Positions 3,890 through 32,574 of a DNA stretch of 32,819 nucleotides are shown here, in pieces. The number at the start of each line of letters is the position of its first letter. Positions within the stretch are counted from its first letter, which is position 1. The position numbers were made by a program, and so were the translations under genes. A model generated the notes under the pieces. It searched no databases. It was not told the DNA's origin and saw only the letters and a list, made by a program, of their open reading frames with translations. Source of the DNA: a virus. Location of the stretch: IMG/VR virus record IMGVR_UViG_3300028608_000050, positions 1 to 32,819 of that record. The stretch is one strand, 5' to 3'.

Positions 3890-4630
3890 TTAGTCTCCTC
3901 TGAAGATCCAGTCGTTGGTGTCGCCCACAGGTTCGAGGTTACTCAAGCTGTCAGACGAAACCTTGAGCGTTGGGAAGAAGTTACCCGGAGCAGGTGCCTG
4001 GTGGTCAATCTGGTACTGATGGTTCTCATGACCCTCCAGCTCGTCCAGGTGACTGACAAAGCTGATATCCTGACCTGTGCCCTTGTTGAGCATCGGTGTC
4101 ATGGTAAACAGCATCCCCAGGGACGCCAGACCCATGCCTTCCTGAGCCTTGTTGTCCTTACCCGCATCACGGATAGCCTGGTTAACGGTAAACGGCTTGA
4201 TCTTCGAGTAGGCAGGGAACAGCATGTAAGCCAGCCCCTCCAGTTGGCGCAGTTCCTCACGAGGAGGAGCTTTGAACTCTGGTACCGTACGAATCATCTC
4301 ACACCACAACGCCAAGTACTCTTGAATCGATTCGTAAATACCTGGCACCGCTTCGTTAGCCTTCTGGAACCCCAGGTCCTGAGGACCCAGGAGGTTGCCC
4401 AGGAACCCCAAGATCTGAGGAACCTTCATCTGCCGCAGTTGAGGTTCTTCGTAATAGCCGTGGTCGTTGGCAAAGCCGGGTTGGTTGTTGTGGTAACGTT
4501 CACGGAGGTCATCCATGGACATCAGGGACTTAGGGGCAACCCACACCCCATAGACCCGGTGGTTCAAGATGCTGTGCAGTTCAATCAACCGAGCCCGCAC
4601 CGCACCATAACGAGGATAAAGCATTTTCAT
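3890..4630 (-). CDS. Virion-associated protein, 246 aa, function unknown
   Basis: A 246-residue soluble protein whose N-terminal part (about 1-175) looks helical and whose C-terminal 70 residues look unstructured and acidic with Asn/Pro/Gln content. A Met/Leu-rich segment around 165-185 (LASLGMLFTMTPML) is too short and polar at its edges to be a confident membrane span. The start codon overlaps the upstream stop by the ATGA arrangement at 4627-4630, so translation is probably coupled. No family is recognised. Its place between two large structural genes suggests a tail or baseplate component or a dedicated assembly factor. Confidence 0.65.
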   Translation of the reverse strand: MKMLYPRYGAVRARLIELHSILNHRVYGVWVAPKSLMSMDDLRERYHNNQPGFANDHGYYEEPQLRQMKVPQILGFLGNLLGPQDLGFQKANEAVPGIYESIQEYLALWCEMIRTVPEFKAPPREELRQLEGLAYMLFPAYSKIKPFTVNQAIRDAGKDNKAQEGMGLASLGMLFTMTPMLNKGTGQDISFVSHLDELEGHENHQYQIDHQAPAPGNFFPTLKVSSDSLSNLEPVGDTNDWIFRGD

Positions 4631-5916
4631 ATCGGAGGTCCGAACTTACGGCTCACCTGAATTAACAGCAGCAGGATTGCGCCGTGGTAGAGTTGTTGCC
4701 ACTTGGGTAGAGTGAAGTAGTCCTTGCAATAGGCGAGGAGCTTCTCCCGGTCTACCATCTGGTTCTTCAGGGCGTCCACTACCAGCTTCTCGAAATCAGT
4801 CTGGGGGTCGCCGTCGTAGAACTGAGGGGTAAACAAGTAGGCAGTTGTATATTGCGGACTGGACGCTAGCAGCGGGAAGCCGTCCATGTTGAAATACGCC
4901 CGTTGGATCTGGTAACGCTCTGGATCGACCACAACCACCCAGTCAAACTTGCTGGAACGCAGGTTGCCGTACTGACGGGTGTTGATCAGGCGGTTGGTCG
5001 AAACGATGGTTACCGTGGAGTTCTTGACCACTGGGAGCAAGTTGAAGTCGCCCCGCATCAGGATCTCCCAGATGGTGATGTCACCAAAGCCACCGTATTC
5101 CCGTCCACCGTACTGCGTGGAGAACAGGTTGATCGGAGGATAGGAGGTTCTGAGGTCAGCCGGCATTTGCCCAGCCAAGAACTTAACCAGGTACTGGTCG
5201 TAGATCTTCCGCCCGTTACCGTCTTCCCAGGCAATAGTCCGTTCAGGGTTCCAGTAGAAGGTGTTCATGATGTAGTTGGCAATGGTCAGGCGCCAGCTGA
5301 ACAGATCCTTGGCGGTGTTGAACTCTGGCTCAGTGATGATGCCAACGCCACCATGCAACGCGGAGTCTTTCGAGTAGATCCATTCCTTAACAACACGGAT
5401 CTCCAACTGGGCCATGAGGTCTTCGGTAAGGATACCGAGTTTCTCGAAGGTGCAGAGGTAGACCTTGTTGGAAGTGTCGTTACGGATCTCAGGTGGCTGG
5501 GTGATGTGATACAGGCCTGCACGGCCTTCACCCGCATCCATGATTGCCACGTCGAACTGCAACGGTGCCAGATCGAATGCCAGCCACATCTCAAACGAAC
5601 CACTGGACTGACCTGTGGTTGGATCGAAGGCATAAGTGCCTGCGCCGTCCTGTTTACCGATCAGGCTCTTGATCCGAGCATAGCTCTGATAGACCGCGGA
5701 GTTATCCGGCTGGAAGGTACTGATCTCTTCGTCAGCACCCAGTTCCCGACGGTAGTACTCCATCAGACGCGGGGTACCGTCTACCATTGTCAGCAACGAA
5801 GTCTCAGGCGTATAGGCCGAGTCTACAATGGTGTGCTTGTAGGCGTGGTTATAAATCTTGGGGCTTTCCGGTGTTGGCGGAAGCTCTTGCCCAAGGGGAG
5901 TGGTCTTTAAGGCCAT
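4627..5916 (-). CDS. Virion structural protein, probably tail or baseplate, 429 aa
   Basis: A 429-residue protein rich in aromatic residues, with segments typical of phage baseplate or neck proteins, such as a Tyr/Gly loop GGREYGGFGDITIWE in the middle. It ends in a hydrophobic stretch (HGAILLLLIQVSRKF) that may be a buried or amphipathic helix. The start follows GAGGA by nine bases, and its ATG overlaps the upstream TAA by one base (TAATG). No signal peptide and no catalytic motif are visible. The family was not recognised; the structural call rests on composition and on the overlapping gene order. Confidence 0.7.
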   Translation of the reverse strand: MALKTTPLGQELPPTPESPKIYNHAYKHTIVDSAYTPETSLLTMVDGTPRLMEYYRRELGADEEISTFQPDNSAVYQSYARIKSLIGKQDGAGTYAFDPTTGQSSGSFEMWLAFDLAPLQFDVAIMDAGEGRAGLYHITQPPEIRNDTSNKVYLCTFEKLGILTEDLMAQLEIRVVKEWIYSKDSALHGGVGIITEPEFNTAKDLFSWRLTIANYIMNTFYWNPERTIAWEDGNGRKIYDQYLVKFLAGQMPADLRTSYPPINLFSTQYGGREYGGFGDITIWEILMRGDFNLLPVVKNSTVTIVSTNRLINTRQYGNLRSSKFDWVVVVDPERYQIQRAYFNMDGFPLLASSPQYTTAYLFTPQFYDGDPQTDFEKLVVDALKNQMVDREKLLAYCKDYFTLPKWQQLYHGAILLLLIQVSRKFGPPI

Positions 5917-8210: not shown

Positions 8211-9647
8211 TTACTCCTTTTTAGCGGCTTTATCGTCTTTTTTCGGTTCTGGTGCTTCTGGTGCTGGGAAGACCTTGGTAGAGATACCGTTTACCGCTTT
8301 ACGGATACCACTTACCAATTTCTTGTGAGCGGTGATTTGCTCTTTGAGTTTCTTCACCGACTCTTTGGCAGCAGCGGTTGCTTCTGCTGTGGACTTCTTG
8401 GCAGTAGAGACGACTTCCTTGTTCTTCTCATCTTTGCCAGTCACATTACTGGCTGCTGTTTTAAGGGCAGCCATTTTCTCTTGAGCGATCTTCAATAGTT
8501 CTTCCAAGCCAGCAGCAGGACCTTCCTGCTTCTTCAGCAAACCCATGAGCTTGTCAAGGCAGGCGGCTGCGTCAGCTTTGGTGTTAAGCCCACCCACGAT
8601 GGTGCTGAACGCACCAGACGGATCAGCCTCAGCGGCCAACTTAACCAGACCTGCTTTAGCCGCAGGGTTGATTTGATCACCACTGCCATCTTTAGCAGCT
8701 ACCAGCGCTTTCTTGTTTGTTTCTGCTGTATCGGCCACGGCTTTATTTGCTCCACTTTCGTCACTAGACGAGAACCATTCCTTGATAGCGGCAAAAGACT
8801 CTGTGATCATCGCCCAGGCCTTCATTGCCATATCCTTGATGCCGTCAAGGATAGCGCCTTCAGTACCCTCTACGGCGCTCATACGCACGTTGTGAGCGCT
8901 AGCTGCACCGATGAGGAAACGGGACTCATAACTGTCCACGCCGTTCAGGTAGTCTTCCATACCTTGAATCAGTGCGATGGTGCCGTCGGCTACACAACCG
9001 CAATCGCAGTCGTTGTCCTTACGGCAGTCTTCCGGTGGCTCGAAGTCTGGCTCAGAAGGTTCCGGCAGATCTTCCAGCTGAGCAGGAGCGAACTCTTCCA
9101 CACCCATGAACATACCCAGACGACTGGTCACAAACACGTCGATGATGTTCAACACCTTCTCGGCGTATTCGATCCGACGGATCTGCGACTGGATCCCCAC
9201 GAGGTTGGGTTGCTCATGACCCTCGTAGAGGTCAATGAAGTAGCGCAGGTTCTTGTGAGAGAACTCGATCCACTCATTAACAGCACTGCCCGACATGTTG
9301 TCAGAAGTTTTGTTACCCAGTGCACAGACCTGCATGGCCACATTACGCTCTGGGGTGAAGTTGCCGTTGTGCACCTCGCTCAACAGCTCGTTGAGGTACT
9401 GATTCACCGGCCAGTTAACCAGCAGCTCACTACCGTCGTAATACGCCAGACGGTCTTCCAGTGCGGCTACGATTCTGCACAAGCGTTCCTTTGCAGAACC
9501 CTCGTCGTCACCGTCCTGATCTACAACGTAGTCAAGACCCATGGACCGCAGCAGGTCAACCAGCACCGGGTTGTTCTCTTCGCTCAGCTTTGCGGCTCTG
9601 CCAGTCAGCAGTAGACTGACCAGCCCCAGCTCAAAATACAGATTCAT
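8211..9647 (-). CDS. Fused structural domain plus processed internal head protein, 478 aa
   Basis: The protein has two parts. Residues 1-190 form a helical domain (MNLYFELGLVSLLLTGR at the start). Residues 191-220 are a Pro/Glu/Asp linker with four closely spaced Cys (208, 214, 216, 218). After that come overlapping cleavage-type sites AVE (258-260) and GTE (261-263), followed by an amphipathic helix (GAILDGIKDMAMKAW). The tail is rich in Ala and Lys. The site-then-helix layout is shared with the internal head proteins in this window; phiKZ prohead protease is known to cut after S/A/G-x-E. The start at 9647 has GAGGAG six bases upstream; the longer ORF to 9701 overlaps the upstream gene and has no such site. 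Processing would release a C-terminal piece of about 215 residues. Confidence 0.7.
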   Translation of the reverse strand: MNLYFELGLVSLLLTGRAAKLSEENNPVLVDLLRSMGLDYVVDQDGDDEGSAKERLCRIVAALEDRLAYYDGSELLVNWPVNQYLNELLSEVHNGNFTPERNVAMQVCALGNKTSDNMSGSAVNEWIEFSHKNLRYFIDLYEGHEQPNLVGIQSQIRRIEYAEKVLNIIDVFVTSRLGMFMGVEEFAPAQLEDLPEPSEPDFEPPEDCRKDNDCDCGCVADGTIALIQGMEDYLNGVDSYESRFLIGAASAHNVRMSAVEGTEGAILDGIKDMAMKAWAMITESFAAIKEWFSSSDESGANKAVADTAETNKKALVAAKDGSGDQINPAAKAGLVKLAAEADPSGAFSTIVGGLNTKADAAACLDKLMGLLKKQEGPAAGLEELLKIAQEKMAALKTAASNVTGKDEKNKEVVSTAKKSTAEATAAAKESVKKLKEQITAHKKLVSGIRKAVNGISTKVFPAPEAPEPKKDDKAAKKE

Positions 9648-9657
9648 TCGCCACTCC

Positions 9658-10143
9658 TCACTGATACTTGATGATGACGGTACCGCAGTAGTACACGGCA
9701 TCCCGTCGAGCTGTTACGTGGAGGTAACCCTCGCTCGTACCCAGCTCTACTTCAAATCGGGACAGGTCACTTAAACCAACGAGACGCAGCCAGTTGTAGA
9801 ACAGAATGGACAGATCATCTCCCAGGACTCCTGGGGGAGCATCGCCAGTAACGATACATTCTTCTGTCGTGTTGTCGATCAGGTCCTGGAGTGGTTGCAG
9901 GTTCACCTGTTCGGGGACCCCGAAGGTCAGACCGGTGATGTCCTGGGGGATACCTTTAAACAGTTCACCCAGGTCTACCTTGTCGATCAGCAGGCCAGCA
10001 CCAGCGCCACCCAGTTCAAGATAGCTGAACACGGTATCACTAACGGAACGACCTGCGCCGAAACGAGGATTCAATCCCTTAACACCTTGCTGCTCCATGA
10101 CCTCAGCGACCAACAGCGTTTTGTTAAAGCAATTCAAGCGCAT
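9658..10143 (-). CDS. Small virion-cluster protein, 161 aa
   Basis: A 161-residue acidic soluble protein without membrane spans or recognised motifs. The start is supported by AAGGG nine bases upstream. It sits between two genes for processed internal head proteins, six bases after the upstream stop and eleven bases before the next start, so all three are surely co-transcribed. It lacks the G-x-E-plus-helix signature. It could be a minor capsid, neck or chaperone-like protein; nothing in the sequence decides this. Confidence 0.65.
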   Translation of the reverse strand: MRLNCFNKTLLVAEVMEQQGVKGLNPRFGAGRSVSDTVFSYLELGGAGAGLLIDKVDLGELFKGIPQDITGLTFGVPEQVNLQPLQDLIDNTTEECIVTGDAPPGVLGDDLSILFYNWLRLVGLSDLSRFEVELGTSEGYLHVTARRDAVYYCGTVIIKYQ

Positions 10144-10149
10144 GATTGA

Positions 10150-11208
10150 TTACCCTTTGGTCTCGATACTAGACTTGGCAATCTGGTACGTGGTCTGGTA
10201 GATCTTAAACAGCAAAGTTTCCAGAACCTTGATACCCGCCATGCCGTTTCTGATAACTTCGTTCAGACTGCTTGCCATGGATTTAGCACCAGCTTCATCA
10301 TCCTTCTCAGTACGCTCAGCAAACGCCAAGCTTTTCTGTAGGTTCTTGATGAATACATCTTCCAACTTCATCGCGTCGTTAATAACGCTGGCAAAGACCT
10401 TGTTGGTGGCCGTCAACGCTTTAGCCACTTCACGAGTCTTGGTCTCATTAGGCAGGTATCCGGCGTTCTTGTCGCTTTCCAGCAGATCAGGGTCGACCTT
10501 CAGCGTCAGCTTACCGTGTGCATTGATGGAGATTGTAGTGCCACCCACAAACGGTGCCGGATCGCTACCGAAGATCTTCACCAGGTTGTCATGGTGAGTC
10601 TTGAACAGCTTATCAAGATCTTCTTTGGCATGACTCAACTGCCCCTTGCCCAGGAACGCCAATTCGGCCTTCACTACAGCATCACCGACTTCTTTGATGT
10701 AAGCATTGGTCTTAGCCGCCGCCTTATCGAGTTCGTCGATGTTCTTGATCATCCAGTCCAAGTTGTTCGGAACCTTGGCCTTGCTGGCCCACAGATTCAT
10801 ATAACCCGCTGGATAGTGCGTGAAGTGTTTCCTCACCCCATGTTTGTCCAGTAGCGTCAAGAGCTCTTTATTCTGACGCTCGGCATTTTCTTTCTTGCCG
10901 GTAAAGAAGTTCCACACCCATTTGAAGAAGTTCTTCACGGCCGTGATAAGTGCACCCACCATGTCCTTAATCCAGCTAAAGAAACCTTCAGTGCCTTGTA
11001 CACTGGAAAGATCCTGCTTGCGTGGGATGTGGGAGAAGATATATTGGTAGTACAGAGACTCGGTACCCGACACCTGGTCATATTCATCCGACAGGTCATC
11101 GATCTTGTCATCTGGGGCGTCCACAACACTCTCAGGATTCTCGGCGTTGTAGAGCGCTTCAACTGTGGGTGTATTGATAAAACGACGAGCAAGCACTGGT
11201 TGCGTCAT
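10150..11208 (-). CDS. Processed internal head protein, 352 aa
   Basis: Predicted internal head (inner body) protein. Residues 1-74 form an acidic propeptide with two candidate protease sites, GTE (48-50, followed by SLYYQYIF) and GTE (72-74). The second is followed directly by a strongly amphipathic aromatic helix GFFSWIKDMVGALITAVKNF. The rest is helical and Lys-rich. phiKZ-type prohead protease cuts after S/A/G-x-E, so the mature protein would begin at Gly75. The start at 11208 (MTQPVLARR) has AGGT nine bases upstream. The longer reading to 11280 runs into the preceding terminator region. A hairpin and a TTTATG element lie upstream, so this gene probably has its own promoter. Confidence 0.75.
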   Translation of the reverse strand: MTQPVLARRFINTPTVEALYNAENPESVVDAPDDKIDDLSDEYDQVSGTESLYYQYIFSHIPRKQDLSSVQGTEGFFSWIKDMVGALITAVKNFFKWVWNFFTGKKENAERQNKELLTLLDKHGVRKHFTHYPAGYMNLWASKAKVPNNLDWMIKNIDELDKAAAKTNAYIKEVGDAVVKAELAFLGKGQLSHAKEDLDKLFKTHHDNLVKIFGSDPAPFVGGTTISINAHGKLTLKVDPDLLESDKNAGYLPNETKTREVAKALTATNKVFASVINDAMKLEDVFIKNLQKSLAFAERTEKDDEAGAKSMASSLNEVIRNGMAGIKVLETLLFKIYQTTYQIAKSSIETKG

Positions 11209-11273
11209 GGTTAAATTACCTGTTAAAAAAGGATATGTAGCAAAACCTATAGCATCCCTTGAAAAAACAAAAT

Positions 11274-11288
11274 GCGGCATAAAGACTA
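11274..11288 (-). promoter_or_regulatory. Possible promoter after the 11285-11316 hairpin
   Basis: The minus strand reads TAGTCTTTATG followed by CCGC, immediately after the terminator stem and about 70 bases before the start at 11208. It keeps the TTTATG core of the three matching 12-mers (29-40, 25756-25767, 29519-29530) but differs in the 5' half, so it is a weak match. Confidence 0.25.
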
Positions 11289-25755: not shown

Positions 25756-25767
25756 CATAAAATGCAG
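25756..25767 (-). promoter_or_regulatory. Candidate late-type promoter motif, copy 2
   Basis: The minus strand reads CTGCATTTTATG, 11 of 12 bases identical to copy 1, about 62 bases before the metallopeptidase start. It would drive the 25693-21613 operon. The motif overlaps an alternative plus-strand ATG at 25762, which supports placing the polymerase start at 25777. TAGCGCTA lies at 25740-25747. Confidence 0.45.
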
Positions 25768-25776
25768 GATACAAAC

Positions 25777-27636
25777 ATGACACAAAACCTATCACCGATT
25801 ATTGCACGCGTCTGCAAACATGCCGTCTATACGGAGCATCGTTTTGACAAGAGCAAGGACTTGCTGACCGCAAAGATTACCAACGTTCATGAGGATAACT
25901 CGCGAACCAACTCATTCATTTCGATTGAAAACTACAAGATGCCTTGGCACCTTGTCAAAGAGCAGCATCGTAAGTTCGAGCAGCCTAAAGACTACCTCGA
26001 AGAACGTTACTGCCGTGAATATCGCAGCACCCGTCGTTCGATTCCGTTTGAAGTACGCAAGCAGCTATTTGGGGTAGCTGACCGTAGCTCGACGATCTAT
26101 GACATTAAGTCGGGTAAAGGCATTCAGTATGTGTTTGGTTTGGACCAGACCACACCGGTTCACTTCAAGCAACAGTTCTTTAAGAAGTACGCGGAGTATC
26201 AGGAAAAGGAACCGTACACCGTAGCAGCTTTCGACGTTGAAGCGGATATGGAAGTCTTTGGTGAAGTCAAACCAATCATGATGGCTTCGGTTACCATGAA
26301 AGGTAAAGCTTACTTTGCTGCTCAGCGTAGCTGGTATCAGAGTCGTCAGGACAAGATCGATCCAAAGGTTCGGTTAACTGACTTTGCAATCCTGGCCGAG
26401 TTAAAAGCAGCTGAGAAGAAGTACGTACAGGAACACCTTGATCGTCGCAAGTGCACGATTGAGTATGAACTGTTCGACACTCCTGGTCAGATTGCTTATG
26501 CCTGCATTCAGAAGTTCCATGAATGGGAACCGGACTGGGTACTGAGCTGGAACGCCGGTTATGACATGGAAGCCTGTGAACGCGCGCTCAGGACTGAAGG
26601 TTATAACCTCGCAGACGTCTACAGTGATCCATCGGTACCAAAAGAGTATCGCAGTTATGAACTGAACCTTGGTCGTACTCACAAGGTTAAGGAGAACGGC
26701 GACAAGACTCCTCTGGAACCACAAGAGAAGTTTCCAACCGTTCGTGCTCCAGCTAAGTGGCAATGGGCTGACGCTATGTCGGGTTATGCCATTAAGCGCT
26801 TCTCGTCGGGTAAGCTCGAGAGCTACTCTCTGGAGTCGATTGCTACTCGTGAAGAGGTCAAGGGTAAGCTGTATACCGAAGAGGGCATGAAGCACGGTCC
26901 TGGTTCACCTCAGTGGCATCGGTACATGCAGAAACATCATCCGTATCTGTATTCGATGTACAACATTGCGGACAACTGGCCTATTGAAGAGATCAACGAG
27001 CAGACTCTGGACTTCTCGCTGTCGATTCCAATGCTGCTGCGTTATTCGGAATACTTCAACTTTGTTTCGCAACCACGGTTGATCGCTGATACCCTTTCGT
27101 TCCTTGCACGTGAGAACGGTTACGTCTGGGGCAGTACTCCGGCTAAACGTGACAAGACCTTTACTGATCGTCTACCAACCCTCGACAACTGGATTGCACT
27201 CCTCGATACCGAGAAGAACGCAGACATGGGCCGAGCGATGTTTATTGGTCTGGATGACGTACTCAGTTCTGGTCGTGGTAGTACCTCTGACCTTGACGTT
27301 GAGGGTGCTTACCCAACGGGCACACTGGCGGCTAATGCCAGCAACAAAACGACACAGATGGAAGTCTATGCCATCCAGGGTGCTGACGACATGAAGTTCC
27401 GGGAGATTGCCGTGAACTATGCCAGCAGTACTCAGGCGAATGCCATGGGCTTGGGTCATGACCTGTTCCGCTTCCCGCAAGCAGACAACATGCAAGCAGA
27501 CTTCGAGAAAGGTCTTGAAGAGCTGGGCATGGGGGACATGTTGCAGCAACTGCGTGAAAGTGCAGCAAAAGCAAAAGCAGAACGAGAGAAGCGTCAAGCA
27601 GAAGTATTGCCAGAAGTACTTAAAGAAGCCGCGTAA
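25777..27636 (+). CDS. Family B DNA polymerase, N-terminal and exonuclease part, 619 aa
   Basis: Predicted replicative DNA polymerase fragment with proofreading. Numbering from the 25777 start: Exo I is AAFDVEAD (D153, E155), Exo II is SWNAGYDME (N259, D263), and Exo III is YNIAD (Y395, D399). Polymerase motif A is DLDVEGAYPT (D507, Y512), and an N-x-S-x-x-T stretch follows it as in other B-family enzymes. Only about 110 residues remain after motif A, with no motif B (KxxxNSxYG) and no motif C (DTD), so about half of the palm and all of the thumb are missing. RB69 polymerase has about 490 residues after motif A. The start has CAGGA about eight bases upstream. The gene ends at a terminator and the missing half is not here. 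Confidence 0.78.
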   Translation: MTQNLSPIIARVCKHAVYTEHRFDKSKDLLTAKITNVHEDNSRTNSFISIENYKMPWHLVKEQHRKFEQPKDYLEERYCREYRSTRRSIPFEVRKQLFGVADRSSTIYDIKSGKGIQYVFGLDQTTPVHFKQQFFKKYAEYQEKEPYTVAAFDVEADMEVFGEVKPIMMASVTMKGKAYFAAQRSWYQSRQDKIDPKVRLTDFAILAELKAAEKKYVQEHLDRRKCTIEYELFDTPGQIAYACIQKFHEWEPDWVLSWNAGYDMEACERALRTEGYNLADVYSDPSVPKEYRSYELNLGRTHKVKENGDKTPLEPQEKFPTVRAPAKWQWADAMSGYAIKRFSSGKLESYSLESIATREEVKGKLYTEEGMKHGPGSPQWHRYMQKHHPYLYSMYNIADNWPIEEINEQTLDFSLSIPMLLRYSEYFNFVSQPRLIADTLSFLARENGYVWGSTPAKRDKTFTDRLPTLDNWIALLDTEKNADMGRAMFIGLDDVLSSGRGSTSDLDVEGAYPTGTLAANASNKTTQMEVYAIQGADDMKFREIAVNYASSTQANAMGLGHDLFRFPQADNMQADFEKGLEELGMGDMLQQLRESAAKAKAEREKRQAEVLPEVLKEAA

Positions 27637-27698: not shown

Positions 27699-28784
27699 TT
27701 ATTCAGCGGCAGCAGCTGGAGCACCGCCGATACCGAATACCTTGTTCAGGGCAGTCGATGCTTCGGCAACGCGGGTGTAGTTGGCTTCGATCAACTTGGC
27801 CACTTTCACGCAAGAGCTGACGATGATGCGCAGAGCACCGATGTCTTTCTGAAGTTCGGCCTTGTCCTTAGCGTCCTTGGCTTTCTTCATCTTGCCTTCA
27901 GCGACGGTCAGCAACTTCTCGATCGCCGACTTCTTGCCTTTGAACTCGTCCGAGAACGCCTTGATCGACACGACGTTGGCGGCGCAGTCTTTGCTGAACT
28001 GGATCGCGGCGTTTGCATCAGTGATGCTAGTAGCCTTTTCCAGCTTGCCCAGGAACTGTGCGTCGCGGGTCATGAACTTCGCAACCATGGCGCCGACATC
28101 GATGGCGTTGTCGGTGAAGTCAGTATTGCCGGACAGGTGCTGAGCGGCTTTGTGTTCCTTATCGGAACCGTTGGCAGCAGCGACGGTCAGGAACGCCTTC
28201 TTCGCTTTAACAGCGCCTTCGACGACCTTGGCCAGGGCACCTTGTGCCTTCTTGTTCATCTTGGCCATTTCTTTCAGAGCAGCCTTGACAGCGTCACGCT
28301 TCTCTTTCAGATCGCCTTTCTTGGCCTTGGCGACGTCAACACCGGCAGCAGCAGCAGCGTTCAGTTGCTTGTCGGCGGTGGCTTCGTCCTGGGTGCCCGA
28401 CGCAGCAGCTTGCAGCTCAGCGGCGTTTTCGGTGCAGACATCTTTGGCCACTTCAGCGTCTTTGGCGCTGTCACGGTTGAAGAAGAAGTCCCAGATGGAC
28501 TTGAAGGTTTTGGTGATGTAGTCCCAGACAGCTTTGAAACCGTCGCCGATGGCCGAGAACACACCTTCGTTACCAGCTACTTGCGAGCCGGAGACGATAC
28601 CAGCGGACAGCAGCACGCCCTGGGCGTATTGTTGAGCGGCGGTCAGGTTGAAGCTTTCGGTACCCGCGATGTCCATCTGCTCAGCAGTGTCGTTCAGGGA
28701 GTCGAACATGATCTCGACGTGCGGGACATCCGGAAGACCAAAGCCGTCGCCGTCTGGTTGGTAAGAGCCTTCTACGTATTCCAT
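27699..28784 (-). CDS. Processed internal head protein, 361 aa
   Basis: Clear family member. Site one, IAGTE (39-43), is followed by SFNLTAAQQYAQG. Site two, VAGNE (69-73), is followed by GVFSAIGDGFKAVWDYITKTF, an amphipathic helix of the same kind as in the 22356-23870 protein. The mature part (from 74) is Ala/Lys-rich and highly helical, fitting DNA-packed inner-head material, and ends GAPAAAAE. The start ATG has AAGGA eight bases upstream, inside the palindrome CCTTGCAAGG. Codons are strongly C/G-ending, which suggests high expression. Mature mass would be about 30 kDa. Confidence 0.8.
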   Translation of the reverse strand: MEYVEGSYQPDGDGFGLPDVPHVEIMFDSLNDTAEQMDIAGTESFNLTAAQQYAQGVLLSAGIVSGSQVAGNEGVFSAIGDGFKAVWDYITKTFKSIWDFFFNRDSAKDAEVAKDVCTENAAELQAAASGTQDEATADKQLNAAAAAGVDVAKAKKGDLKEKRDAVKAALKEMAKMNKKAQGALAKVVEGAVKAKKAFLTVAAANGSDKEHKAAQHLSGNTDFTDNAIDVGAMVAKFMTRDAQFLGKLEKATSITDANAAIQFSKDCAANVVSIKAFSDEFKGKKSAIEKLLTVAEGKMKKAKDAKDKAELQKDIGALRIIVSSCVKVAKLIEANYTRVAEASTALNKVFGIGGAPAAAAE

Positions 28785-28832: not shown

Positions 28833-29468
28833 TTAGACGTTGGTCAAGTAGCGGAAGTACTGGGTAACGTTTTCTTTACCCTTGCGATTCAGGTCAACGA
28901 TAACGCTGGCCAGATCAACGAGCTGGTGCAGCTTGTAGCGCGCTTCCCAGTTCTTGGCAACCATCGACAGGAACGACATGTACGTGTGGTACAGTCGGAT
29001 GGTCTGTACCGGATACTTCCGATCCAAACCAACGGTGTGACGGAAGGCCAGGCCACCATCGAAGACGTCGCGGTTGTTGCGAATGATGTTCAGCAGATCG
29101 TCGGTTACCACAACGAACTGTTCGAAGTCAAGACGCAGGGAGTTGCCGACCGTTTCCATGAAACTGATCTGCTCTTCGCGCTCTTCTTCTTTGGTCTTGT
29201 AACGCTTACGGCCAGCGAGGAATTCCACGTGGCGTTCGATACGCGCTACCATGACGTCGGTGGTGGTGTCGCCTTTGGCGTTAACCTGTGCACCGATGCC
29301 AACAACCATGATGTCTCCCTGGTAAGTAGCCTCAGCCGGAGCAACAGCTTCTTTTGCAGGTTCGGTGACAACAGCAGAGGCTTTAGCAGCTGGTTTAGTG
29401 CTAACCTCCTTTGCTGGAGTACCACTGAGATCTTCGCTCTCAGGTGGCGTATAATCTGGAGTGCTCAT
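28833..29468 (-). CDS. Virion structural protein with low-complexity N-terminus, 211 aa
   Basis: Residues 1-50 are Pro/Ala/Lys/Glu-rich and probably disordered. A compact helical domain follows (about 55-211), with a highly charged KTKEEEREEQ stretch. There is no enzyme motif and no membrane span. The start at 29468 has AAGGG seven bases upstream, inside the 14-base palindrome GAAAGGGCCCTTTC (29469-29482). Promoter motif copy 3 lies about 50 bases upstream. It is followed by the 27699-28784 gene after 48 bases, so the two share an operon. No family is recognised. Confidence 0.7.
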   Translation of the reverse strand: MSTPDYTPPESEDLSGTPAKEVSTKPAAKASAVVTEPAKEAVAPAEATYQGDIMVVGIGAQVNAKGDTTTDVMVARIERHVEFLAGRKRYKTKEEEREEQISFMETVGNSLRLDFEQFVVVTDDLLNIIRNNRDVFDGGLAFRHTVGLDRKYPVQTIRLYHTYMSFLSMVAKNWEARYKLHQLVDLASVIVDLNRKGKENVTQYFRYLTNV

Positions 29469-29573: not shown

Positions 29574-30110
29574 TCAGATCAATTTCTTGTCCAAACCCAG
29601 TTGGCGCATAATTTCCATCAAGTCTTTATTGCTATCCCCAACCTTAGGCAACTTACCATTGCCCGATGGATCCGGTGGGTTATCAATCTTGTCTCGTTCA
29701 CTGCGTCCTTCAGTCACACCAGTGATCAAGTCGTCGATCAGAAACATAGGCATCTCCATGTAATCCCTTAAAGAGATAAGCTCATGAAGTTTGTAGAACC
29801 CGTACTTCTTAGCGACAGACTTAATCGACCACTCATGGTAGAAGGCGTTCTCCTCAGGGATGTAGGCAACTGAAGAGAACGGATCCATGGTAGCAGGCGT
29901 GTAGTGGTTCATGTTCAGGTCATGCAACATGGACTCGTTAAACGACATGGCTTCTGGGGTAATGCCTTTGATAGACTTCCCCAGCAGCGCATTGTTAACC
30001 TGATTGAACGCAGGACTGAAGACAATCCTGTTGTCGACTCGGGGGCTTATTCCGAGAGGGCTTCGGATTTGACTTTGCCTTGCTCGGCCGTCTGCTTGAG
30101 CATCGCCCAC
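29574..30110 (-). CDS. Minus-one-frame ORF, probable frameshift extension, 178 codons
   Basis: A coding-looking ORF that overlaps the end of the 30047-31768 gene by 64 bases in the -1 frame. The only early start is a GTG at 30110 with no ribosome site, and the next Met (residue 54) also lacks one. Yet the sequence from about residue 23 (RVDNRIVFSPAFNQVNN) reads like real protein. The frame stays open upstream to the T7 slippery site at 30122-30128 and past it. I infer that it is translated as a -1 frameshift extension of the upstream protein, giving about 182 extra residues. It has a helical core (SIKSVAKKYGFYKLHELISL) and a Pro/Gly/Asp-rich part. Independent translation from a rare start, or a homopolymer sequencing error, remain possible. 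Confidence 0.7.
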   Translation of the reverse strand: MGDAQADGRARQSQIRSPLGISPRVDNRIVFSPAFNQVNNALLGKSIKGITPEAMSFNESMLHDLNMNHYTPATMDPFSSVAYIPEENAFYHEWSIKSVAKKYGFYKLHELISLRDYMEMPMFLIDDLITGVTEGRSERDKIDNPPDPSGNGKLPKVGDSNKDLMEIMRQLGLDKKLI

Positions 30111-31768
30111 TGGGTGAGGGTAAAAAAACTCATCACTGGATCGATAGGCGTGTAGCCGAGCTTACGATCCAACAGGCCTTCAGGGTCTTCCAGGTCACCC
30201 TGGTTAGTCCGGCACTTCGGACACACGTAGTTGCGCACGCCCATAAAGGTACGGGACATGTACGGTGTCTTGTTGAGGATGAACTTCACCAGGTTACGGT
30301 TGAGGTCTGCCTGATCACGCAGGACATCCATCAGGCCGCCGTTGAACTCGACATCGTCGATCTCGCTACGACGGAACACCACTTCTTCCTCGTCGGTGTT
30401 TTCCGCTGGCAGGTCAACTTGTGCCTGTACCCAGTGGATGAACTCCGTGGAACCGAGGTTGTTGTGGAGCATGGTGACCTGGGTCTGGTACTCAGCCGGA
30501 TCGATCAGCTTCGTACGCAGCTCTGCCAACCGAGGGTTGATATCGCCAACGAAGAAGTCGAACGCCGAGAAAGCTTCAGCCAGAGTAGGCGGGGCGCATT
30601 CCAGGTACATCGACTTGTCGTCGTTATACACGCGGTTGCTTTCCAGGCCATAGGTCGAAGCTCGGCTCAGCGCACGGGTTTCCGCCATGGTGTACTTGGC
30701 ATGACCGTTCAGCAGGTTGGCGTAGATAGCCACGTCTTCGTCAGTCGTGATGTGATGACGGTGACGCAGTAGCTTGCTCGCCTGTACCAGCTTGAAGGCT
30801 TCCCAGTCGCACTTGCCCGAGAGGCAACGCAGGTTCAGGTTGATACCCTTGTTGTTGGTCGACTCGATCAGTGCGTTGATGATCGCATCCATGTCAGTCA
30901 ACAGGATAACGTTGGACAGCTGGTTGAAGTCAGCCAGGTCCGATACGCTCGAGTTGGTGACGCGGTTCGCCATGAAGTTCCAGATCACCCGGATCGAAGC
31001 GATACGCGCCAGCACGGCAGAGTTGTTACCGATCTGCTGTACATAGCCGGTGATCGTGCGACGGATGTCGTTGATCAGTGCACCCATCTCGGTATGGTTG
31101 GTACGCGAGAAGGCAAAGCTCAGGAACGAGTCACGGCACAGCACGTCGTAAGACAACTTATCAGCACCAGAGCCCGTTTTACGCGCAGCACGGCGACGCA
31201 TGTTTTCACGCTGGGAGAAACCCTTGGTAGAAGCAGAAGGTTTCTTACCGATGATGTCACCGGTATTCACGCCACCACGGTTGGAGACGTTGGACACACC
31301 CGCTTCGTTCATGACGCTGGTACGGATCTTCAGCTCGTCCTGGATTTCCGACATGAAGGCGTACAGATCGCTGGCGTGGTTGGAAACCTCGTCAGAAGTC
31401 TTGCCCGGGAAGTTGGCCTCGAGATACTGAAGCCAATCCGATTCAGCCTTATGGAAGACCGACTCAGGAACACGCTCTTCATCGAACATGGCCTTGGCGC
31501 CGCTGTAAGTCAACCAGCGACCAATAACGCCTTGAGCCTTGATGATGTCTTCTTTACGGTTACCGAGGAAGACTGTCAGGAAGCCACCGTCCTGTTGCTC
31601 TTCTTTGGTGAGGTCACGAATGATCTCATCCTCGGGAGTCAGGACTTCTTTCATCGTGGTGTTCAGTGCAGTATGCACGTCACGGTGAGTTGGAGCAGGG
31701 GCAGCGGGTGCAGCAGCCACAGCCGGAGCAGATTGCTCCAGCGGATCTTGAGGGAGATCAGTACTCAT
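30047..31768 (-). CDS. Virion or tail-assembly protein, zero-frame product, 573 aa
   Basis: A 573-residue protein. The first 35 residues are Ala/Pro-rich, and a basic stretch (RENMRRRAARK, 187-197) lies in the first third. Two Cys pairs, CLSGKC (315-320) and CPKC (516-519), could bind zinc together. Codons 548-549 are the two TTT codons of a T_TTT_TTT slippery site, 24 codons before the stop. A -1 shift there would join residues 1-549 to the next ORF, giving about 731 residues. Short and frameshifted forms of one gene are known for tail assembly chaperones (lambda G and GT). Length and Cys pairs hint at a T4 gp26-like hub chaperone, but this is a weak guess. AAGGA lies eight bases before the start. 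Confidence 0.72.
   Translation of the reverse strand: MSTDLPQDPLEQSAPAVAAAPAAPAPTHRDVHTALNTTMKEVLTPEDEIIRDLTKEEQQDGGFLTVFLGNRKEDIIKAQGVIGRWLTYSGAKAMFDEERVPESVFHKAESDWLQYLEANFPGKTSDEVSNHASDLYAFMSEIQDELKIRTSVMNEAGVSNVSNRGGVNTGDIIGKKPSASTKGFSQRENMRRRAARKTGSGADKLSYDVLCRDSFLSFAFSRTNHTEMGALINDIRRTITGYVQQIGNNSAVLARIASIRVIWNFMANRVTNSSVSDLADFNQLSNVILLTDMDAIINALIESTNNKGINLNLRCLSGKCDWEAFKLVQASKLLRHRHHITTDEDVAIYANLLNGHAKYTMAETRALSRASTYGLESNRVYNDDKSMYLECAPPTLAEAFSAFDFFVGDINPRLAELRTKLIDPAEYQTQVTMLHNNLGSTEFIHWVQAQVDLPAENTDEEEVVFRRSEIDDVEFNGGLMDVLRDQADLNRNLVKFILNKTPYMSRTFMGVRNYVCPKCRTNQGDLEDPEGLLDRKLGYTPIDPVMSFFTLTQWAMLKQTAEQGKVKSEALSE
30122..30128 (-). other. Candidate -1 ribosomal frameshift site (T_TTT_TTT)
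   Basis: The minus strand has seven T in a row. The zero frame divides them as AGT TTT TTT ACC, which is the X_XXY_YYZ pattern. The ORF ending at 29574 is in exactly the -1 frame and is open across this point. I could not identify a strong downstream stem or pseudoknot by eye. Confidence 0.55.
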
Positions 31769-31791: not shown

Positions 31792-32574
31792 TTAGTTAAC
31801 TTGTTTAGCGCCGACGTCTTCGTACGCGTCGCTGTCCAGCAGCTCGCCCATGACAGGCATGGTGCCTTCAGCAGGGGCTTCTACCGGTTGGACGGTACGG
31901 TACATCGCGGCCACGCGGGCAATACGCTCACCGTGCAGACGCATACCGAAGTCGTAGTTGGTTTCACCTTCGAGGCTGTGCTCACGCACGTATTCGTTGA
32001 TGACCTCTTCGCGAGGACGCAGCACGACTTCCATCAGACCTGGGATGTCGAACTGCATGACCTCGGCCAGGGTGTCGGTGTAGTGCACGAACAGCGAGAT
32101 GTAGTCTTCAACTTCTTTTTCTTCGTTGATGAACACGAAGATTGCATTGACGTCTTCAGCGACCGAAACGATCTGCTTGTCGAAGGCGTCAACCAGCGCT
32201 TGTTCTTCGGCGGTCAGCGTAACCTTCTTCATCGCGACCAGCTTTTCAACAACTTCCAGCACGCCGTGGATGTTGCCCAGGATCGGGATCATTTCGTTGA
32301 TGCCTTTCAGCACGTCAACGTTGGTCAGGGATTCCTTGACCGCCTGGTAATCTTTCTTCAGATCGAGCGCCGTTTGCACAACACCTTTGGTAGCGATGTC
32401 GTAACGCAGTTTGGCTTCTGCTGCCTGAATACCTTCCGGTGTTGCGGCCATACGTGCCAGTTCACGACGCCCCATGCTGAACTGCTTCACGTTACGGTCT
32501 GAGTTAGCCGCCTTCTTTTTCTGTTTGGACTTAACAGCACGCTGAGCTTTCTTCTGCGCTTGTTTAGTAGACAT
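31792..32574 (-). CDS. Virion structural or assembly protein, 260 aa
   Basis: A 260-residue helical protein. The first 50 residues are very basic (QKKAQRAVKSKQKKKAANS), which suggests nucleic-acid or acidic-protein binding. The rest is Glu/Val-rich and helical, with an acidic C-terminus. No known domain is recognised. AGGGA lies about ten bases before the start. It lies 23 bases upstream of the 573-residue protein gene and is probably in the same operon. Codons are C/G-ending, suggesting high expression. It is divergent from the plus gene at 32616. Confidence 0.68.
   Translation of the reverse strand: MSTKQAQKKAQRAVKSKQKKKAANSDRNVKQFSMGRRELARMAATPEGIQAAEAKLRYDIATKGVVQTALDLKKDYQAVKESLTNVDVLKGINEMIPILGNIHGVLEVVEKLVAMKKVTLTAEEQALVDAFDKQIVSVAEDVNAIFVFINEEKEVEDYISLFVHYTDTLAEVMQFDIPGLMEVVLRPREEVINEYVREHSLEGETNYDFGMRLHGERIARVAAMYRTVQPVEAPAEGTMPVMGELLDSDAYEDVGAKQVN

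Follow-up and report, generated by a model that had tools for sequence, protein, structure and literature searches.

The window analyzed here, 32,819 nucleotides of the IMG/VR virus record IMGVR_UViG_3300028608_000050 (positions 1 to 32,819), carries on its minus strand a gene of 573 codons (30047..31768), homologous to EL gp47 and PHIKZ077 (phrog_4585), and a second open reading frame of 182 codons plus stop (29574..30122), homologous to EL gp48 and PHIKZ076.4 (phrog_19747). An earlier note on this DNA had singled out the pair as a candidate for programmed −1 frameshifting, and the features on which it built were all recovered. The first gene contains an in-frame T_TTT_TTT heptamer (30122..30128, minus strand) in the register AGT TTT TTT ACC, separated from the stop by 24 codons, and the next frame lies in −1 relative to it; this frame opens at 30161, 33 nt upstream of the heptamer, and continues to its stop at 29574. 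A −1 shift at this site is predicted to join 549 residues to 182, giving a fusion of 731 residues beside the 573-residue form, in line with the approximate size proposed before. The last 24 codons and the stop of the short form (30047..30121, minus strand) would be read in both frames, followed by a stretch read in the −1 frame only (29949..30046, minus strand) which extends to the first ATG of that frame at 29948.

Across the 27 open reading frames of the window that we took as genes (10,420 codons), there are 15 in-frame heptamers of the type X_XXY_YYZ, and the one in the 573-codon gene is the only one at which the −1 frame continues beyond 47 nt after the stop, namely for 473 nt. With one such heptamer in 15 opening into a long −1 frame, a chance origin of the arrangement was rejected. 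TTT is a rare codon in the rest of the gene, where it occurs twice as compared with 20 occurrences of TTC.

On the basis of homology and of a local gene order in common with EL and ΦKZ, the window is assigned to an EL/ΦKZ-type jumbo phage of the Chimalliviridae, the family which includes both Elvirus and Phikzvirus. Searching 50,697 phage records with tblastn, we found matches to the core in 69 records (E 0.01) and to the extension in 40; with PHIKZ077 as the query, 208 records were matched (E 0.001), and profile comparison identified PHIKZ077 as a homolog of the core (E 1.9e-15). EL, RisingSun, FishSpeaker, PDCC-1, and OBP share an order in which the RNA polymerase beta gene is followed by two genes, the frameshift pair, one to four genes, and the DNA polymerase. 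This order is kept in ΦKZ as PHIKZ080 (RNA polymerase beta), 079, 078, 077, and 076.4, with the DNA polymerase on the other side, and SPN3US diverges further than ΦKZ does. In the window itself, a gene for 260 amino acids (31792..32574, minus strand) occupies the place of EL gp46 and PHIKZ078 upstream of the pair, and one for 211 amino acids (28833..29468, minus strand; phrog_14374) takes the place of EL gp49 downstream; the DNA polymerase, which marks the vicinity of the pair in EL-like relatives, lies at 25762..27636 on the plus strand.

Several other observations were made along these genomes. The Goslar gene directly downstream of the pair (4319-4879) is annotated as a macro domain (Poa1p-like). 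The core gene and its neighbors in the EL-like phage vB_PQ1 (PQ516283) are annotated as several small pieces, and this fragmentation suggests many sequencing errors in that record. Within the window, the PHROGs matches (35992, 21850, 33940, 27616) of the genes at 8211-9701, 10150-11280, and 27699-28784 (minus) overlap with one another, a pattern that paralogs from a single family of unknown function might give.

We followed the site through the family in 57 records, which comprised, besides the window, 30 contigs from IMG/VR and 26 named isolates. Several records are near-copies, and the set is part of the records found, its isolates spanning many, not all, genera of the Chimalliviridae. The run turned out to be kept throughout, reading TTTTTTT in 34 records, TTTTTTC in 20, and GTTTTTT in the remaining three, such that 54 of the 57 have T_TTT_TTT or T_TTT_TTC. 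The 0-frame stop follows 10 to 46 codons after the first TTT (23 to 26 codons in 48 of the 57), and the −1 frame is open in every record, over 154 to 183 codons in 56 of them and, in the remaining record (L033), over 98 codons to the end of the contig. Although TTC outnumbers TTT in 36 of 41 homologous genes, every one of the 41 uses TTT as its first slip codon. The three records with a G for the first T of the heptamer at the 3′ end of the core gene, PhiPA3 and the IMG/VR contigs L061 and L062, keep six T, the −1 extension, and the same frame relation; single P-site tRNA slippage or slippage by the polymerase is possible there.

PHIKZ077 and PHIKZ076.4, EL gp47 and gp48, OBP_093 and OBP_094, and SPN3US ACQ60_gp227 and gp226 are homologous pairs with the same slippery run and the same −1 frame, and all four are annotated as separate proteins without any frameshift noted. 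The earlier note had considered that relatives might instead carry two cleanly separate genes. What we saw is the opposite, with the frame relation and the two-frame coding described below conserved through the phage family.

The same comparison speaks to a second concern of that note, that the true run might be of eight T, read short, so that the two frames would be one continuous ORF. T runs are indeed error prone under some sequencing methods. Nevertheless, the split recurs in all 57 records, which come from many laboratories, the run is ended by a C in 20 of them, and a 0-frame stop kept within 46 codons of the first TTT is contrary to an error in run length. Because the same split is present in many independent genomes, we exclude a run-length error, whose probability we consider negligible.

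If the −1 frame is translated from the heptamer onward, selection should be visible in both frames. Among seven close relatives, the proportion of synonymous change (pS) in the last 23 codons of the 0 frame was 0.13, compared to 0.435 ± 0.114 in 23-codon segments clear of the overlap, the lowest of which reached 0.203. Read in the −1 frame, the overlap gave a pS of 0.057 and a pN of 0.082, each frame constraining the other. The −1-only stretch between the 0-frame stop and the first ATG had a pS of 0.476 and a pN of 0.124 in these relatives, hence a pN/pS of 0.26; over all 17 sequences, where pS is near saturation in this stretch, pN/pS was 0.57.

Nine pairs from other clades gave a similar picture, with pS lower in the overlap than in the gene body in all nine and no body segment as low as the overlap in five. 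In the other four, such segments numbered 7 of 495 (pEt-SU/Survivor), 16 of 444 (L061/L062), 43 of 479 (L040/L043), and 63 of 496 (L044/L046), the signal being weak in the last three. The stretch ahead of the first ATG showed pN below pS in eight of the nine pairs; no purifying selection was seen there in the AH04/L055 pair, in which it comprises eight codons. Low synonymous change in the overlap together with purifying selection after the stop fits a coding −1 frame that lacks a start of its own. Judged by comparison of the sequences, the site, the frame relation, the two-frame coding, and their conservation in the 26 named isolates and 30 IMG/VR records are well established.

Public annotation sees the locus differently. 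A separate downstream coding sequence is annotated in 26 of 26 isolate records examined, a join in none, and in this reading the downstream ORF would start alone, either at a GTG (30110) or at one of the ATG codons found from 29948 onward. This GTG, the first start codon of the −1 frame, lies inside the overlap, has no visible Shine-Dalgarno-like sequence, and is common only to the closest IMG/VR relatives of the window, which argues against a general role as a start. In ΦKZ, the first ATG of the extension frame comes as late as 221 nt past the stop. The extension protein is conserved from the slip point on, ahead of any ATG, and in 25 of the 40 records matched by tblastn the alignment begins at its residue 1 or 2. 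With no shared early start and with conservation preceding any ATG, we rejected separate initiation, which appears very improbable. That the two ORFs are expressed by joining of their frames we regard as nearly certain, as far as genome comparison can tell.

We propose that one gene would thereby yield two proteins through programmed −1 ribosomal frameshifting. Most ribosomes would terminate at 30047 and release the 573-amino-acid short form. A minority would step one base back on U_UUU_UUU, re-pairing from UUU to UUU in the P site and from UUU or UUC to UUU in the A site, and would then read 182 more codons to produce a long form of 731 amino acids with an additional C-terminal domain. The register of the heptamer agrees with such tandem slippage, and the programmed −1 shift suggested at the outset is supported by a slippery run, a frame relation, and two-frame coding that are all conserved in the phage family.

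We also looked for signals that might promote the shift. No downstream RNA structure was found at the site (mean z +0.19 over 42 loci), nor was a conserved Shine-Dalgarno-like stimulator, the longest match being 0 to 5 nt in 57 loci (a set differing from the 57 conservation records). A stimulator, be it a downstream structure or an upstream Shine-Dalgarno-like site, is common in −1 frameshifting, although not obligatory. An excerpt of PMC5009743 describes U_UUU_UUU as less shift prone than A_AAA_AAG in E. coli constructs, and for this reason the long form is probably the minor one. Both the efficiency of the shift and the ribosome, rather than the polymerase, as the slipping machine are points that we infer.

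The same fusion product could be made by transcriptional slippage, whereby the phage RNA polymerase would add one U on the T run to generate two kinds of mRNA. These phages encode RNA polymerase genes themselves, no RNA stimulator was detected, and all 57 records have six or more T in a row, whereas the preceding base is a G in three; in Goslar and RAY, the run has eight T. Set against this, T_TTT_TTC in 20 of the 57 amounts to a run of only six T (seven in SPN3US) before the C, and C-ended six-T runs make polymerase slippage less likely, runs of six or seven T being short for such slippage by bacterial enzymes. In addition, 54 of 57 records retain the T that precedes the first TTT codon. Overall, slippage by the ribosome fits the sequences better than slippage by the polymerase, which we deem unlikely.

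What might the two proteins do? The core contains two invariant pairs of cysteines, the first (C315 and C320; 30809..30826, minus strand) located beside predicted strands and the second in the motif C516-P-K-C519 (30212..30223, minus strand); we infer that these pairs bind zinc. An AlphaFold model of the short form was of good quality (mean pLDDT 83.9, pTM 0.83), and in a Foldseek comparison with the BFVD viral models, the best 50 of 95 matches were headed by the protein's own family. A "Baseplate protein" of an uncultured myovirus ranked sixth (E 3.8e-17), and the same name recurred at ranks 20, 23, and 42. Weak matches to a "Baseplate hub assembly protein, bacteriophage T4-like" were seen at rank 19 (E 2.3e-3, probability 1.00, TM score of 0.50 by target length) and rank 21 (E 0.12, probability 0.87). 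Within the first 23 ranks, all names that tell are thus of baseplate (6, 20, 23) or T4-like hub assembly proteins (19, 21), the lower ranks being mixed. As for existing annotations, one relative is called "putative baseplate protein" and one "putative baseplate hub assembly protein."

Other searches were less informative. Searches of the PDB by fold and by sequence gave no match, and these together with Pfam and PHROGs assigned no function; no known tail-chaperone family was matched in the Pfam or PHROGs searches of 25 members of either part. Pfam hits to Zn_ribbon_FGT1_1 (1 of 25) and DUF5420 (2 of 25) were far below their cutoffs and set aside, and fold matches of the extension were given no weight, its model having a mean pLDDT of 58.9. 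The label "putative ZipA-like cell division protein," carried by the homologs of RisingSun, Joad, LAh10, and ZPAH34, received no support in our searches. The PHIKZ077 record, unlike those of many neighbors, lacks a "structural" note. The earlier note had suggested that a tape measure gene might be found nearby; neither such a gene nor one for the tail tube was recognized among the 27 ORFs of the window, most of which are without known function.

We consider the frameshifted protein a probable chaperone for tail or hub assembly in these phages. A hub or tape measure protein would be bound by the abundant short form, whereas the scarcer long form would use its extension to bring in another partner, much like lambda gpG and gpGT, on a core that may resemble T4 gp26/gp51. 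The tail assembly chaperone suggested in the earlier note is plausible: the best lead is the weak similarity in predicted fold to T4-like proteins of hub assembly, and no tail-chaperone profile matched. One may ask whether the frameshift is real and the protein serves some other core role in nucleus-forming phages, for example, in transcription, packaging, or nucleus biology. Its gene lies near those of RNA polymerase beta and DNA polymerase, matches in Pfam, PF12322, and solved structures are lacking, and T4-like hub proteins are matched only weakly in fold. However, the near-top fold matches with telling names are baseplate proteins, and a short form with a frameshifted long form is, according to an excerpt of PMC5009743, typical of tail assembly chaperones. 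Such another role thus seems the less plausible option, if a more serious one than slippage by the polymerase. Taken as a whole, one gene with a −1 ribosomal frameshift whose two forms serve as a tail/baseplate-hub assembly chaperone of the Chimalliviridae is an explanation to which we assign a probability of roughly 0.65.

A short form and a longer frameshift product of the same locus, in the style of lambda G/GT, are here predicted from sequence alone. Lambda-type chaperones are encoded between the genes for the tail tube and the tape measure, bind both of these proteins, and do not occur in the virion. Lambda G/GT and other frameshifted chaperones likewise have their −1 shift shortly before the stop of the first gene and a common short form next to a rarer, C-terminally extended one. 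In contrast to lambda G, which is a small protein, the gene in the window has a core of 573 amino acids with four conserved cysteines. It further differs from lambda-type chaperones in its T_TTT_TTY site, in matching no tail-chaperone family, and in having no recognized tape measure gene alongside.

A second comparison is with T4 gp26 and gp51, paralogs that both belong to PF12322 (T4_baseplate), contain cysteine pairs, and differ in that gp26 ends soon after the second pair, whereas gp51 runs on for some 46 residues. An excerpt of PMC3004832 describes both as hub assembly chaperones, gp51 being needed yet absent from the particle, and also cites genetic support for gp26 in the hub. Shared with the jumbo phage protein are two cysteine pairs, of which the second lies close to where the short member ends, the existence of a short and a C-terminally longer member, and possibly, on a weak match, the fold; the two-pair trait of PF12322 is our own reading of that family, and such short motifs recur by chance. 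Unlike the jumbo phage forms, gp26 and gp51 come from two separate genes (208 and 249 amino acids), gp51 has CC as its second pair, which is reduced in one relative, and the cysteine spacing differs. The PF12322 profile matched the locus in none of 25 records, its two weak hits, in PS1 and CF8, lying elsewhere. When the core was compared with gp26 and gp51 by profile, only 12 to 15 residues around CPxC were aligned, at 5 to 39% probability, as against 98.7% for the gp51-gp26 control, and the extension aligned with neither. Because there was no profile match at the locus and only this short alignment, we leave the protein out of PF12322 and propose, by analogy, that it may work like a hub assembly chaperone in the fashion of lambda G/GT. 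The terminal FF of T4 gp26 was considered as a similar slippery site and rejected, its codons being TTC TTT and gene 25 following directly in the record.

A published description of the frameshift was not found in the open-licence literature, among the matches listed, and the name PHIKZ077 did not occur in the open-licence literature searched. The excerpts of PMC10885494, PMC10449902, PMC5009743, PMC11849849, PMC7412058, PMC12915314, and PMC4981718 make no mention of it.

Two genes annotated apart in the opened jumbo phage records, ΦKZ included, are thus very probably one frameshifted gene, to judge from their reading frames. For ΦKZ, the exact fusion peptide at the junction of PHIKZ077 and the −1 extension is predicted to be FPHLIPIDMLSTFFYFGGLEVKPDGVVNDLR. 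Merging the two would correct the proteome of a much-studied phage group and provide a candidate tail assembly chaperone for the nucleus-forming phages. More tentatively, and at rather less than even odds, the frameshifted gene could be a hallmark of all Chimalliviridae that encodes a tail/hub chaperone, with T4 gp26/gp51 as the same pair obtained via gene duplication; the pairing of an abundant short chaperone with a scarce long one would then be a principle common to lambda-like siphophages, jumbo phages, and T4, arrived at in two genetically different ways. If the link to T4 is true, it would also suggest why T4 has two paralogous hub chaperones.
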